In this document: one piece after another, positions 3,045-44,987 of the stretch
How the letters are laid out: every line of letters begins with the position of its first letter
Position numbering within the stretch: the first letter of the stretch is position 1
IMG/VR virus record: IMGVR_UViG_3300044684_000351
Span: 1-58,097 of that record
Direction: 5' to 3' (one strand)
Source: a virus
DNA: 58,097 nucleotides
Position numbers and translations under genes: made by a program
The notes under the pieces: model-generated
What the model was told of the DNA's origin: nothing
Databases searched by the model: none
What the model saw: the letters and a program-made list of their open reading frames with translations, nothing else

Positions 3045-3133
3045 GGGCGCGTGGCGAAGTTGGTTGAAACGCAACGGACTTAAAATCCGTCACATTAGAA
3101 ACATCGTGAGTTCAAATCTCACCGTGCCCACCA
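3045..3133 (+). tRNA. tRNA-Leu (anticodon UAA)
   Basis: A seven-pair acceptor stem (GGGCGCG with CGTGCCC), a five-pair anticodon stem (ACGGA/TCCGT) around loop CTTAAAA, a long variable arm typical of leucine tRNAs, T arm GTGAG-TTCAAAT-CTCAC and an encoded CCA end. It reads UUA, a codon common in the AT-rich small genes of this phage. Confidence 0.95.
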
Positions 3134-3137
3134 AATT

Positions 3138-3230
3138 GCGGAAGTAGCTCAATGGTAGAGCGGTGGATTTATAATCCATGATCGGCAGATTACCGAACGG
3201 TTGTGGGTTCAAGTCCCACCTTCCGCACCA
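3138..3230 (+). tRNA. tRNA with UAU anticodon (Ile by anticodon) and long variable arm
   Basis: It has a perfect acceptor stem (GCGGAAG/CTTCCGC), D arm GCTC/GAGC, anticodon stem GTGGA/TCCAT with loop TTTATAA (anticodon UAU, codon AUA), T arm GTGGG-TTCAAGT-CCCAC and an encoded CCA. The variable region is 23 nt and contains a TCGG/CCGA hairpin, which is a class II feature not expected in isoleucine tRNA. The charged amino acid is therefore uncertain. The gene lies four bases after the Leu tRNA. Confidence 0.85.
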
Positions 3231-40752: not shown

Positions 40753-42090
40753 TCACACTTGCCTTTCATGTTCAAGGATGAAGTTGATAACTTGTTCTGA
40801 AAAACCGTCGATGTGCACCCAGGGCCCGTAACCAACGCCGTTTTGCGCACTCGCGACGTTAATTATATATCCTTTACCTTTCGGCGCAGGGCAAGTTTGC
40901 AAAGCGCTTTGTTCAAAGTGTTGACGTTTAAATCCTGTAGTTTGTTCATCTGTAATAACTACAATGCGATCATAGGGAACTTTTTTATTAATTTCCTCAA
41001 TCGCATCAAAAAGTCTTGTACCGCCACGCGGACAATTATTAATCGCGTCCACTCCAGCCATTCCCTTTCGCGGCGGAACTTCGGTAATCACATCCGCAAA
41101 AGCAAAGACACGACAATTACCTGGGAAAATACTTGCAAGCGTGGCGGCGGCATCACGACGCGTTAGATCACTTTTAGCCGAAAGTCTTTCATTCATACTG
41201 CCACTCACATCTACAAGAATTGCCGTTCGGCCCTGCAATGTTTCCATTTGCATAATTCCGGTAAGCAACGCAGCGTCAAGTTCTGGCTCAAACATCGGCA
41301 CAATACGCGCCGCTGCAGTAAACCGAAACGGCAAAACCTTATCCGCGCCGCGCCGCTCAAGAATTGCGCCACGAATAAGATTTGCATCCACTCCGCTTTC
41401 CTGCATATTTCTCAAATTGCGCAGCAGCGCCAAATAACCCAACTTCTTTTCAAGCAAAAGCCGCGTAAAAGTTTCTTTTTTATTCGCGCCGCCAGAAAGC
41501 GCCACTTCCCAAGTATCAGGGCTTTCAAGCGTGCCGTTCATAAGTTTTTTCCACACTTCTTCCTGTTCCGCATTCGGCTTCGCATGAACAAGACGCAATA
41601 CGTCCCTCAGTTTTACTTGCCCGTCCCTATTGTACTTAGCAAGCTGATACGCATTAAACTTTCCAAATGCGCGTGCCAAACCCTTTTTCATCTGTGCACT
41701 GAGTGGAACTTTTCCATTCCTCCAATAAATCGCGCAAAGTTCCGTAAGTTCATCGGCGCGTTGAATAGTTTGGAAAATTGTTTCGGAAACAATAGAAGAT
41801 TTAACTCCCCGCTTCGCCAACGCACAAAGCAAAAGTAACGGAACGTGCCTCAAATTATACTTTTCCCGCGCTTCAATTGCCAGCGCCGCAAGTTCCGTAA
41901 CTTTCACTTCTTCGGCAAGTTTTTCAATTCTCGCCGCAATGCTTTGGCCATCTTCATAAAATTCATTTTCCCAAAGCAAACAAGAAAGAACAGAACGACG
42001 AAGCGCCTGCAAAGGCGTCAAATGCAAAAAAGCCGGCGCACCTTCATGGGTGAACACCGGCTTTGCTTGGGCAGTTACGTTAAGCTTCAT
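40753..42090 (-). CDS. rsr: Rsr, Ro60 orthologue (TROVE ring plus vWA domain)
   Basis: A 445-residue protein. Residues about 1-280 are helical HEAT-like repeats of a TROVE domain (LTPLQALRRSVLSCLLWENE, RHVPLLLLCALAKRG, FGKFNAYQLAKYNRDG). Residues about 285-440 are a von Willebrand A domain with MIDAS motif DVSGS and later GGTRLFDAI and VITDEQ. Ro60 forms a ring that binds misfolded RNA ends in its cavity and Y RNAs on its rim. Bacterial Rsr proteins work with RNases such as PNPase. AGGAG precedes the ATG. Upstream on the same strand lies a run of Y-RNA-like genes, which strongly supports the identification. Confidence 0.93.
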   Translation of the reverse strand: MKLNVTAQAKPVFTHEGAPAFLHLTPLQALRRSVLSCLLWENEFYEDGQSIAARIEKLAEEVKVTELAALAIEAREKYNLRHVPLLLLCALAKRGVKSSIVSETIFQTIQRADELTELCAIYWRNGKVPLSAQMKKGLARAFGKFNAYQLAKYNRDGQVKLRDVLRLVHAKPNAEQEEVWKKLMNGTLESPDTWEVALSGGANKKETFTRLLLEKKLGYLALLRNLRNMQESGVDANLIRGAILERRGADKVLPFRFTAAARIVPMFEPELDAALLTGIMQMETLQGRTAILVDVSGSMNERLSAKSDLTRRDAAATLASIFPGNCRVFAFADVITEVPPRKGMAGVDAINNCPRGGTRLFDAIEEINKKVPYDRIVVITDEQTTGFKRQHFEQSALQTCPAPKGKGYIINVASAQNGVGYGPWVHIDGFSEQVINFILEHERQV

Positions 42091-42138
42091 TTTTATTCTC
42101 CTATGTTAAAGAAATTTTTATTTCCTCCAACATAGAAG

Positions 42139-42220
42139 TAGTAAGGGAAAAGCGAAAAGAAGGTCGGAGCTACGCTCCAGCTTAGCAGGCTGGTGAACTT
42201 CTTTTCTACACCACTTACTC
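42139..42220 (-). ncRNA. Y-RNA-like RNA, unit 4 (short, anticodon-arm-like head)
   Basis: The ends pair (GTAAG/CTTAC), then a conserved asymmetric loop (TGGTGTA opposite GCTTTTCC), then GAAAAGAAG/CTTCTTTTC. The enclosed head is about 35 nt and can fold as CCAGC-CTGCTAA-GCTGG, identical in form to a tRNA-Ser(GCU) anticodon arm, or alternatively as GGAGC-GTA-GCTCC. It is the copy nearest the rsr gene. Confidence 0.72.
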
Positions 42221-42224
42221 TTTT

Positions 42225-42294
42225 ACGTCGGGGAAACAAGCGGGAACGGTTTTTCATCATGGCAGAAGTAACCGTCACCTACACCACCGAACAT
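42225..42294 (-). ncRNA. Y-RNA-like RNA, unit 3 (minimal head)
   Basis: The shortest copy. End helix ATGT(T)CGG/CCGACGT with one bulge, the conserved GGTGTA opposite GCTTGTTTCC, and an inner helix GGTGACGG/CCGTTCCC with one mismatch. The head is only about 22 nt and begins with the same TTACTTC as units 1 and 2. There is no tRNA-like part. Confidence 0.6.
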
Positions 42295-42304
42295 TTTATT
42301 TTGC

Positions 42305-42439
42305 TTTGAGAGGGAAAAGGCGACTACAGATAACAAACGCGCGCTAGACCACTACGCCACAGAACTTACGTTCCGGTAGGATTTGAACCTACGTCTCGTC
42401 TCCCCAAGAGAAGTAACTGTAATCTACACCACTCTCAAA
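42305..42439 (-). ncRNA. YrlA-type Y RNA, unit 2 (tRNA-like head)
   Basis: The ends pair as TTTGAGAG/CTCTCAAA. The loop TGGTGTA faces GCCTTTTCC, and the inner helix is GATTACAG/CTGTAGTC. The head is a permuted tRNA: T arm GTAGG-TTCAAAT-CCTAC, acceptor-like CGGAAC/GTTCTG capped by GUAA, and D arm GCGT-AGTGGTCTA-GCGC. An anticodon-stem-like CGTTT/AGACG leads back to the inner helix. The D arm and a CTTGGGG stretch look tRNA-Pro-like. No CCA end exists, so it should mimic, not act as, a tRNA. Confidence 0.85.
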
Positions 42440-42445
42440 CTTTGC

Positions 42446-42584
42446 AGGAAGGGAAAAGGCGAAAAGAGAACTGGCCGAAGCCAAAGTCAAATGCTCTACC
42501 ATCTGAGCTACAGAAAATTACTTTTCTGATCGGACTTGAACCGATGACCGTCTGATGAAGTAACTCTTTTCTGCACCACTTCCT
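42446..42584 (-). ncRNA. YrlA-type Y RNA, unit 1 (tRNA-like head)
   Basis: The ends pair as AGGAAG/CTTCCT. The loop TGGTGCA faces GCCTTTTCC, and the inner helix is GAAAAGAG/CTCTTTTC. The head is a permuted tRNA body: T arm ATCGG-TTCAAGT-CCGAT, acceptor CAGAAAA/TTTTCTG capped by GUAA, D arm GCTC-AGATGGTA-GAGC with G18G19 and A14/A21, and TTTGA/TCAGA in the anticodon-stem position. All tertiary-contact bases of a real tRNA elbow are present. A CTTTGG stretch and the order of arms recall tRNA-Gln. Confidence 0.88.
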
Positions 42585-42620
42585 AAACTTTTTCTCCTTT
42601 TCAACCATGGAGCGCGGAAA

Positions 42621-42689
42621 CTAAAAGGCGGGGTTAGAGGGGGCATTACCTTTTAGGTTCTATTGAAGGATCGTTTAAAGGCGATCCTT
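42621..42689 (-). ncRNA. Two hairpins in the Y-RNA leader transcript
   Basis: CTAAAAGG pairs with CCTTTTAG around a C-rich 20-base loop, and AAGGATCG pairs with CGATCCTT. They lie between the large structured RNA and unit 1. They may be processing signals, terminators, or a further small RNA. No uridine tract follows. Confidence 0.5.
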
Positions 42690-42780
42690 AATTGCATAGT
42701 AAGAAAAATAGTAAACTTTTAAACTCCAAGGAACTAATGCCAAAGAGATTTTTTACTTTAAATTTTCCTACCTCACGCGC

Positions 42781-42952
42781 TAAAGAAAATTAAGAAGGAA
42801 GGCGAATATCATTTTAAGGAACTCTAGCGTTCCACCTCTAACTTAGTCACTTGTCATCACAACAAGAAGTTTTGGCGATGATCTTCCCTATTCGCTGGGA
42901 CGGCTGATTAGGCCACTTTTGCCTTGCTTCCTACTTAATTTTCCTTTCTTTA
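42781..42952 (-). ncRNA. Large end-paired structured RNA, unassigned
   Basis: The ends of this 172-nt segment pair through AAAATTAAG/CTTAATTTT and GGAAG/CTTCC, with an outer TAAAG/CTTTA. Inside, GCGAATA pairs with TATTCGC, and local hairpins GGAAC/GTTCC and CTTGT/ACAAG are visible. The layout is Y-RNA-like (closed ends, internal GCC-TTCC strand), but the GGTGYA strand and a tRNA-like head are absent. It may be a divergent Y RNA or a different regulatory RNA. Confidence 0.5.
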
Positions 42953-42959
42953 TCGAAAT

Positions 42960-43018
42960 CGGAGCGGGAAGAGTTTAGGTGCAATACCATCAACTGTTTA
43001 ATACTACTTCCCGCTCCG
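42960..43018 (-). promoter_or_regulatory. 12-bp leader hairpin just after the promoter
   Basis: CGGAGCGGGAAG pairs perfectly with CTTCCCGCTCCG around a 35-base loop, some 27 bases downstream of the -10 box on the minus strand. It is likely at the 5' end of the Y-RNA transcript: an attenuator, a stabiliser, or another small RNA. Confidence 0.65.
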
Positions 43019-43044
43019 GGTGTCAGGAGTGCCCGACAAGAGAA

Positions 43045-43072
43045 AGCATACCAGAACGGGCGGCGCGTGCAA
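43045..43072 (-). promoter_or_regulatory. Sigma70-like promoter of the Y RNA-rsr operon
   Basis: On the minus strand TTGCAC, a 16-base spacer and TATGCT. The spacer and flank (GG before the -10 box) resemble those of the 40680 promoter. It would drive all the structured RNAs and rsr. Confidence 0.6.
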
Positions 43073-43240
43073 GAGTTATTTTGCGAAAAGTGCGATTTTT
43101 GCTCACGCCACGCTGTCAGCAGATCCTCATATAATGCTCGGGCGCACGCGCGTAGCAAGAAGCGTGCCAAAACATGCCCCTTGCGTCCGTTAGCACAATG
43201 TGCAAAAATAGCAAACTTGGCAATGCTAGTGAGGCTTGAA

Positions 43241-44507: not shown

Positions 44508-44987
44508 ATGAACATTTTCTACCTCGACACTTCCCCACACCTTGCCGCGCAATACTTATGCGATAAGCACGTTGTCAAAATGATTCTTGAAAGCGCGCAA
44601 ATGCTTTCGACGGCGCATCGCATTCTTGACGGCGATGGTTACGCGGATAGTGAATATCTTTACAAACAAACCCACATACATCATCCGTCAAACATTTGGG
44701 TGCGCCACTCTTCTTTGCATTACAACTGGCTTTTTGAACATTTCGCGGCGCTATGCGAGGAATATACGCGGCGCTATAATAACATTCATAAAACCGCGCG
44801 CCTTATTATTTCCTTGGAAGCATTGCCGCGCCGCATTAAATCCTATGCTTTTTCAACGCCGCCACAGTGTTTGCCGGATAAATATAAAGGGCCGGATACT
44901 ATCGTAGCATATCGTGCGTATTACCTTGGCGATAAACGCGCCTTTGCAGAATGGAAATATTCCCCTAAACCTGAATGGTGGAGTTAA
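44508..44987 (+). CDS. Conserved phage protein, CDKHVVKMILESAQ family (159 aa)
   Basis: It begins NIFYLDTSPHLAAQYLCDKH and contains VKMILESAQMLSTAH, NIWVRHSS and a late AYRAYYLGDK, a pattern I recognise from a widespread phage family. Homologues are sometimes annotated as pyrimidine-dimer DNA glycosylase-related, but I cannot verify this from sequence. The conserved His/Asp/Lys and Trp residues suggest an enzyme. GAGGAGGAAG precedes the ATG. Confidence 0.72.
   Translation: MNIFYLDTSPHLAAQYLCDKHVVKMILESAQMLSTAHRILDGDGYADSEYLYKQTHIHHPSNIWVRHSSLHYNWLFEHFAALCEEYTRRYNNIHKTARLIISLEALPRRIKSYAFSTPPQCLPDKYKGPDTIVAYRAYYLGDKRAFAEWKYSPKPEWWS

Follow-up and report, generated by a model that had tools for sequence, protein, structure and literature searches.

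Y RNAs near the Ro60 gene were reportedly noted in both bacteria and phages by Chen and colleagues in 2014 (cited in PMC12282133). In Salmonella, the rsr-yrlBA-rtcBA operon combines one Rsr (Ro60) protein with several Y RNAs (YrlA/YrlB) whose genes adjoin that of the protein, and in one class of these RNAs a T arm, an acceptor-like stem and a D arm follow each other in permuted order; PNPase is bound by the head of YrlA (reviewed in PMC8394870). In RYPER of Deinococcus radiodurans, where an Rsr, an end-paired Y RNA and PNPase come together, the mechanism is known (PMC7790460, PMC8394870). Among phages, TROVE proteins have been listed with RNA repair in a review of jumbo phages (PMC7824862) and described in crAss001 (PMC8375218), Thermus phage phiLo encodes a Ro60 of solved structure (PDB 9l5y), and the Rsr gene of Listeria phage CKA15 lies near three highly transcribed non-coding regions, for which an identity as Y RNAs has been proposed (PMC12282133).

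The locus described here belongs to a single IMG/VR virus record, whose full 58,097 bases are called the window below. Like the Salmonella locus, it joins one Rsr to several adjoining Y RNAs, one class of which shows the same permuted order of tRNA-like elements; it differs in being on a phage, in having four units upstream of rsr with no RtcA/RtcB recognised nearby, in that these units score under the cut-off of the Rfam YrlA model, and in that the window's relatives carry an anticodon arm between the Y stem and the T arm. With RYPER it shares the Rsr fold and the end-paired Y RNA, whereas tRNA-mimic heads are found in the window, where a PNPase partner is only putative. As in CKA15, an otherwise unrelated phage of an unrelated host, Rsr is encoded downstream of the non-coding regions on the same strand and, as in phiLo, the Ro60 is encoded by the phage itself. 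Caulobacter/Brevundimonas jumbo phages and Xanthomonas phages of 43 kb carry TROVE proteins together with the same kind of Y arrays, which are annotated as tRNAs or left blank; the proteins of these phages and of phiLo are 27–62% identical to the window Rsr. A phage Rsr with Y RNAs is already known, and the pairing seen in the window is not exceptional.

A Ro60/Rsr protein encoded by an uncultured phage

The window encodes a P22-like coat protein, portal, terminase, lysozyme, family A DNA polymerase and UvrD-type helicase. The named phages closest to it in protein sequence are only distantly related (Pseudomonas phage PAE2 with 50% for the portal, Caulobacter phage Kuura with 36% for the DNA polymerase), so that it is an uncultured podovirus-like phage, and the relatives of its Rsr indicate that the host is probably an alphaproteobacterium. 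PADLOC found no defence family in the window.

The 445-residue open reading frame is a Ro60/Rsr protein. It matches Pfam TROVE (PF05731) with 60 bits (3.2e-16; cut-off 23) and PHROG 850, an RNA-binding protein family (2.6e-47), and a profile search of the PDB matches solved Ro60 structures, 9l5y at 4e-50. The Pfam vWA_Ro60 model scores 23.7 bits, under its cut-off of 27.7; the MIDAS motif, D294-x-S296-x-S298, is complete and is invariant across a 29-sequence alignment. When the AF2 model (pLDDT 83.6) was compared with known structures by Foldseek, the best matches were a Trove crystal structure (9kop, 1.7e-18), phage phiLo Ro60 (9l5y, 4e-17), D. radiodurans Rsr (2nvo, 4e-12) and vertebrate Ro60 (Xenopus Ro, 1yvp, 4e-12). 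The TM scores against solved Ro60/Rsr structures are 0.60–0.71 (normalised to the query), and the ring of helical repeats and its closure by the vWA domain are both present in the model. When the structures are aligned, 17% of residues are identical to those of Rsr from D. radiodurans. An earlier note, made from the sequence alone, had read a TROVE ring and a vWA MIDAS in this protein and proposed a comparison with TROVE profiles; profile, model and motif all bear it out. Relatives of this Rsr occur in 86 phage records, in at least 502 viral stretches and in 268 stretches of bacterial and archaeal genomes.

Four Y RNAs precede rsr

Four Y RNAs, U1 to U4, lie head to tail on the minus strand within 450 bases (42586–42137) preceding rsr, with about 47 nt between U4 and the start codon (Table 1). 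GGTGyAG...TTACTTC on the 5' side and CGCyTTTTCCC on the 3' side form cores common to exactly these four units, the TTACTTC element being altered in U4; a detector for the cores, run over the 58 kb, found besides them one further weak match on either strand. The outer and inner stems are paired in all four units while their sequence differs from unit to unit. Three covariance models were used, of which R3 was built without window sequences and is thus out-of-sample; as R1 and R2 include window sequences, membership was judged by R3 scores only, and the 58.3 bits of U3 against R2 come from a model in whose build U3 took part.

Table 1. Coordinates of the rsr gene, the Y RNAs and their elements in the window
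Feature	Position	Strand	Evidence
rsr (Ro60/TROVE + vWA), 445 aa, ATG start	40753..42090	minus	Pfam; AF2 + Foldseek; MIDAS alignment
U4: Y RNA, small two-hairpin head	42137..42221	minus	R3 32 bits, E 6.5e-8, 1-kb search
U4 second hairpin GGAGC-GTA-GCTCC, like a class II variable arm	42166..42178	minus	sequence; MFE structure
U4 anticodon-like hairpin CCAGC-CTGCTAA-GCTGG	42177..42193	minus	sequence
U3: short Y RNA, 72 nt, hairpin without tRNA head	42223..42294	minus	R3 39.9 bits, E 4.5e-8, whole window
U2: YrlA-type Y RNA, permuted tRNA head	42304..42439	minus	R3 92.9 bits, E 4.5e-21, whole window
U2 T arm GTAGG-TTCAAAT-CCTAC	42376..42392	minus	sequence
U1: YrlA-type Y RNA, permuted tRNA head	42443..42586	minus	R3 98 bits, E 2.6e-22, whole window
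U1 D arm GCTC-AGATGGTA-GAGC	42493..42508	minus	sequence; helix 5 of alignment A2
U1 acceptor-like stem CAGAAAA-GTAA-TTTTCTG, closed by a tetraloop	42511..42528	minus	sequence; alignment A2
U1 T arm ATCGG-TTCAAGT-CCGAT	42529..42545	minus	sequence; R3 alignment
Structured leader, about three end-paired modules	42600..43040	minus	folding z -4.3

The features of bacterial Y RNAs in the broad sense (paired ends, a Ro-binding core and a position adjoining rsr) are found in all of U1–U4, and the narrower YrlA architecture, with the three tRNA-like elements in permuted order on a Y stem, in U1 and U2, not in U3 and U4. In the heads of U1 and U2, the T arm is followed by the two acceptor strands, the 3' strand ahead of the 5' strand with a short loop between them, and then by the D arm. 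This is the layout of a circularly permuted tRNA, so that the earlier description of two RNAs with tRNA-like heads was correct. The acceptor-like stem of U1 corresponds to helix 4 of alignment A2, where two-sided changes are seen in 7 of 7 pairs.

What stands at the anticodon position differs between the units. In U1 it is occupied by a UUCG-capped hairpin. The body of U2, once de-permuted, is nearest to tRNA-Pro, and a Pro(GGG) anticodon arm is possible, though weak and doubtful; the call is uncertain because the T-arm spacing is 20 and not the modal 22. U4 (folding z -2.8) carries CUGCUAA in its first hairpin, and tRNA-Ser(GCU) of the reference set has exactly these bases as its anticodon loop. 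The minimum free energy (MFE) structure of U4 keeps the three inner pairs of this hairpin, since the outer GG can also pair in the one that follows. Within the window, an anticodon loop is a good fit in U4, doubtful in U2 and absent from U1 and U3.

The earlier note extended the end-paired RNAs over about 1 kb, apparently under a single promoter. The part at 42137–42586 stands as the four Y RNAs. The distal part is strongly structured (0 of 100 shuffles as stable) and lacks any Y RNA match, the best R3 hit in the leader having an E-value of 0.38 and neither R2 nor R3, with filters off, finding extra units in 42600–43100. The proposed promoter found no convincing support: a consensus scan gives 5 sites where 3.7 are expected, which is background, none of them at 43072, and the TTGCAC/TATGCT pair there scores too low for a sigma-70 promoter.

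The heads are permuted, not linear, tRNA structures

Sixty long units from phage and bacterial loci were aligned by structure. Two-sided changes occur in 29 of the 32 pairs; 94% of cells are paired and 543 cells are two-sided, against 165 after shuffling. This signal is lost once the partners are slid against each other. Under the permuted reading, the acceptor strands are paired in 87% (49% shuffled), and under the linear tRNA reading in 45% (48% shuffled), which is chance level. As the acceptor strands pair across the loop and the linear reading does no better than chance, the heads of the Y units are not tRNAs. Rfam and ARAGORN both call tRNAs over such units, as would be expected of ordinary or decayed tRNA genes, but linear acceptor pairing does not rise above chance across the class, and the tRNA that Rfam places in the window (42371–42515) fuses the D arm of U1 with the T arm of U2; we consider this origin of the calls extremely improbable, linear tRNA genes being ruled out by the covariation.

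The search of the region with a YrlA covariance model, proposed in the earlier note, fell short of the Rfam cut-off. The Rfam YrlA model (RF02553) aligns to U1 and U2 at model positions 27/28–81 with 32 and 21 bits, both below the cut-off of 69, and this cut-off is reached by no unit in 14 array loci. Both U1 and U2 align to the whole of R3. Judged from positions 27–81, the Rfam model seems to lack room for an anticodon arm.

Arrays and anticodon arms in related loci

About 150 rsr/Y RNA gene clusters (80 viral and 74 bacterial loci) were scanned with R3. The viral loci have a mean of 2.6 units, with two or more in 66 loci and four or more in 15; the bacterial loci have a mean of 2.85, with two or more in 57 and four or more in 28. 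Arrays of four are, by these counts, normal and no peculiarity of phages, so that the earlier emphasis on several Y-like RNAs accompanying one Rsr on a phage is true as an observation and loses its special character. In the viral loci, 199 of 207 Y RNAs are upstream of rsr and 8 downstream (for example in loci L011 and L013). The linkage is also seen from the RNA side: an exact scan of viral contigs for the RNA motif, in itself too strict, picked out 5 contigs without use of the protein, and all 5 encode Rsr. In ten whole bacterial genomes, strong Y-model matches are concentrated in such arrays, and several weak ones elsewhere coincide with tandem tRNA genes. In the window, the observations support the conclusion that the phage encodes an Rsr together with its own Y RNAs, including tRNA mimics of the YrlA type.

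The segment that separates the Y stem from the T arm is, in many heads, exactly a tRNA anticodon arm together with a variable loop. Among 58 distinct heads selected by the modal spacing of 22 nt alone, U33 is present in 54 and a purine at position 37 in 54; pair 31–39 forms in 57, against 30 expected (maximum 41 in 2000 shuffles), and pair 30–40 in 56, against 48.7 expected (maximum 53). By a looser definition, an anticodon arm is found in 105 of 265 heads with a T arm and in 3.9% of shuffled heads. Base 37 depends on base 36 as it does in tRNAs (U36–A37 in 55/56, G36–G37 in 17/26; p ~1e-8). For 41 of 99 loops, an identical loop exists among the reference tRNAs of that anticodon; permuting the flanks gives 27 (maximum 37). 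The commonest anticodons are Thr UGU, Asn GUU, Ser GCU and Met CAU, and the 36 tRNAs that ARAGORN calls over Y units on the same strand are mostly of these four; viral heads favour Thr UGU, Ser GCU and Asn GUU. The body agrees with the anticodon in isotype in 9 of 55 cases (2.95 by permutation, p 0.001), a real but weak effect, most bodies being generic in isotype. Units of the short class have an anticodon arm in 20 of 70 cases, which is suggestive only, as it is partly forced by the conserved TTC...GAA pairing. Since MFE structures do not always contain the anticodon arm, the case rests on comparison and not on folding energy. Anticodons differ within 16 of 16 arrays; about 94% would be expected to do so from anticodon frequencies (a hand estimate), and differing anticodons as a sign of design were rejected on this ground. 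These comparisons suggest that many of the partner RNAs in the roughly 150 clusters display different tRNA anticodons. A limited literature search, which cannot prove novelty, found no description of an anticodon arm with varied anticodons in such RNAs.

Possible functions of the phage Rsr and its Y RNAs

Beyond the identity of the protein and the RNAs, the permuted fold, the organisation in arrays and the linkage to rsr, any account of function involves binding of the stem by Rsr, recruitment by the heads of tRNA-handling proteins and a benefit to the phage, all of which we infer. The best supported account, and one that we hold to be slightly likelier right than wrong, is a tRNA-mimicking tether of the published Rsr-YrlA kind. 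The Rsr ring would grip any of the four Y RNAs at the conserved end-paired stem, leaving the heads to project out of the ring as docking modules. U1 and U2, without a free acceptor end, should be neither charged nor used in translation; with their 7-bp, loop-closed acceptor stems, they might instead draw host tRNA-handling proteins to the ring, candidates being PNPase, as in RYPER, or enzymes that process or cleave tRNAs. Different heads may bring different partners to one Rsr. During infection, the net effect could be that turnover of structured RNA or of tRNAs is re-targeted or blocked in favour of the phage; the functions put forward in the earlier note, redirection of host RNA decay or handling of damaged tRNAs, stay conjectural. 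Three observations count against the tether: of the window proteins that were scanned, none was recognisable as PNPase, RtcB or an RNA ligase; the best YrlA score is under the Rfam cut-off (32 vs 69 bits); and U3 and U4 lack both T and D arms, which one shared tRNA-binding partner would not explain. In RYPER proper, a special case that does not exclude the tether in general, the phage Rsr and Y RNA would capture the PNPase of the host, and structured RNA (rRNA and the mRNA of the host) would be degraded, supplying nucleotides or clearing host transcripts. Its mechanism is the one established in D. radiodurans and the protein fold is the same, but that experimental case is distant at 17% identity, no sequence feature points to PNPase, and several different heads or anticodon loops would not be needed, which leaves it a rather unlikely outcome in this strict form. 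A main role of the upstream RNA as a structured leader controlling rsr, with the Y-like folds as cis elements, would agree with its position directly upstream on the same strand and with the very stable segment at 42600–43040; against this, the units are self-contained and covary end to end, vary in number and order and lie downstream of rsr in the 8 cases mentioned, and we think it improbable.

A more novel reading than the tether is that the RNAs act as anticodon decoys, in which uncharged, looped-off tRNA bodies with varied anticodon loops would sequester or block the anticodon nucleases and tRNA-targeting defences of the host and leave the tRNAs of phage and host working. An anticodon nuclease would be kept busy by just such a molecule, a tRNA mimic that is uncharged and bears a real anticodon loop. 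Hughes et al. (PMC7790460) have raised competitive inhibition of an anticodon nuclease by the head of Salmonella YrlA, and phage tRNAs have been linked to evasion of tRNA-cleaving defences (PMC10264068, PMC11555353). The reading also gains from the conserved U33, purine 37 and 31–39 pair, the tracking of base 36 by base 37, the excess of anticodon arms over the null, the independent reading of anticodons by ARAGORN, the three anticodons favoured among viral heads, and from heads such as that of U4, which can retain an anticodon-like loop without T and D arms. Yet the same arrays reside on bacterial chromosomes, so that a decoy would not be specific to phages; the window itself offers one good loop and one doubtful one; the differences within arrays are those expected by chance; and the heads may be plain inheritance from tRNA genes. 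That Salmonella YrlA is left uncut by the nuclease (PMC7790460) fits a decoy and equally fits no contact. On balance we regard decoys as doubtful. A generalisation to Rsr loci of phages and bacteria alike, in which panels of permuted tRNA mimics would form an Rsr-carried, programmable decoy or sensor against tRNA-cleaving defences, is offered with similar reserve. On the reading as panels, each mimic would display a chosen anticodon loop, mostly of the U36–A37 type in the viral set. The tRNA-mimicking tether is the account that we prefer for the window.

Implications

The sampled Y RNAs of alphaproteobacteria and phages form a class that the Rfam YrlA model misses, and the comparison exposes an annotation error, such Y RNAs being labelled tRNA-Ser, tRNA-Thr or tRNA-Gln in phage genomes. 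If many heads indeed carry real and differing anticodons and have no tRNA function, the reason why phages and many bacteria retain a Ro60 with tRNA-like Y RNAs would become directly testable, by asking which anticodon-reading protein meets the heads and whether that protein is part of phage defence.

tRNA-like matches and labels in the Y-RNA arrays

Several units of the Y-RNA class with circularly permuted tRNA heads carry the label tRNA-Ser, tRNA-Thr or tRNA-Gln in phage genome annotations. For the units at three compared rsr loci (L014, L017 and L016) a tRNA identity was rejected, because the pairing of the acceptor stem, which is found across the class, shows that they are permuted Y RNAs. 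Within the window, the Rfam tRNA match that runs from U1 to U2, two of the Y RNAs upstream of rsr, is an artefact.

Features of the window and of compared phage loci
Feature	Position	Strand	Basis or remark
Tandem tRNA-Leu and tRNA-Ile	window 3045-3230	+
Rfam tRNA match	window 42371-42515	-	U1 D arm and U2 T arm joined
Strongly structured leader	window 42600-43040	-
Pyrimidine dimer DNA glycosylase-like protein	window 44508-44987	+	Pfam Pyr_excise, 4.7e-10
tRNA-labelled Y RNA	L014:3766-3840		phage genome annotation
tRNA-labelled Y RNA	L017:3831-3898		phage genome annotation
tRNA-labelled Y RNA	L016:3128-3195		phage genome annotation

The leader upstream of the Y RNAs contains a perfect 11-bp hairpin (43017-42961) and two larger modules with paired ends, none with an above-threshold match to the Rfam or Y-RNA models. 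The glycosylase-like gene belongs to the block divergent from rsr.

Among bacteria, a single genome, that of Asticcacaulis sp. AC466 (L110 and L113; G004 contigs C1, C3 and C24), contains two or more rsr loci accompanied by Y arrays, one of them on a 57.7-kb contig classed as viral by IMG/VR, and Y-RNA matches also on a third contig. In a Hyphomonadaceae MAG (L182:2814-3801), 6-7 Y units precede rsr in a row, and some of their heads bear loops of the Gly UCC and Asn GUU types.

Possible origin of the YrlA heads

In the window search, the head of the Y-RNA covariance model matches, at 28 bits, a stretch spanning the junction of the tRNA-Leu and tRNA-Ile genes, which as neighbours can already be read as one permuted tRNA. 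Such adjacent gene pairs are a plausible source of YrlA heads.
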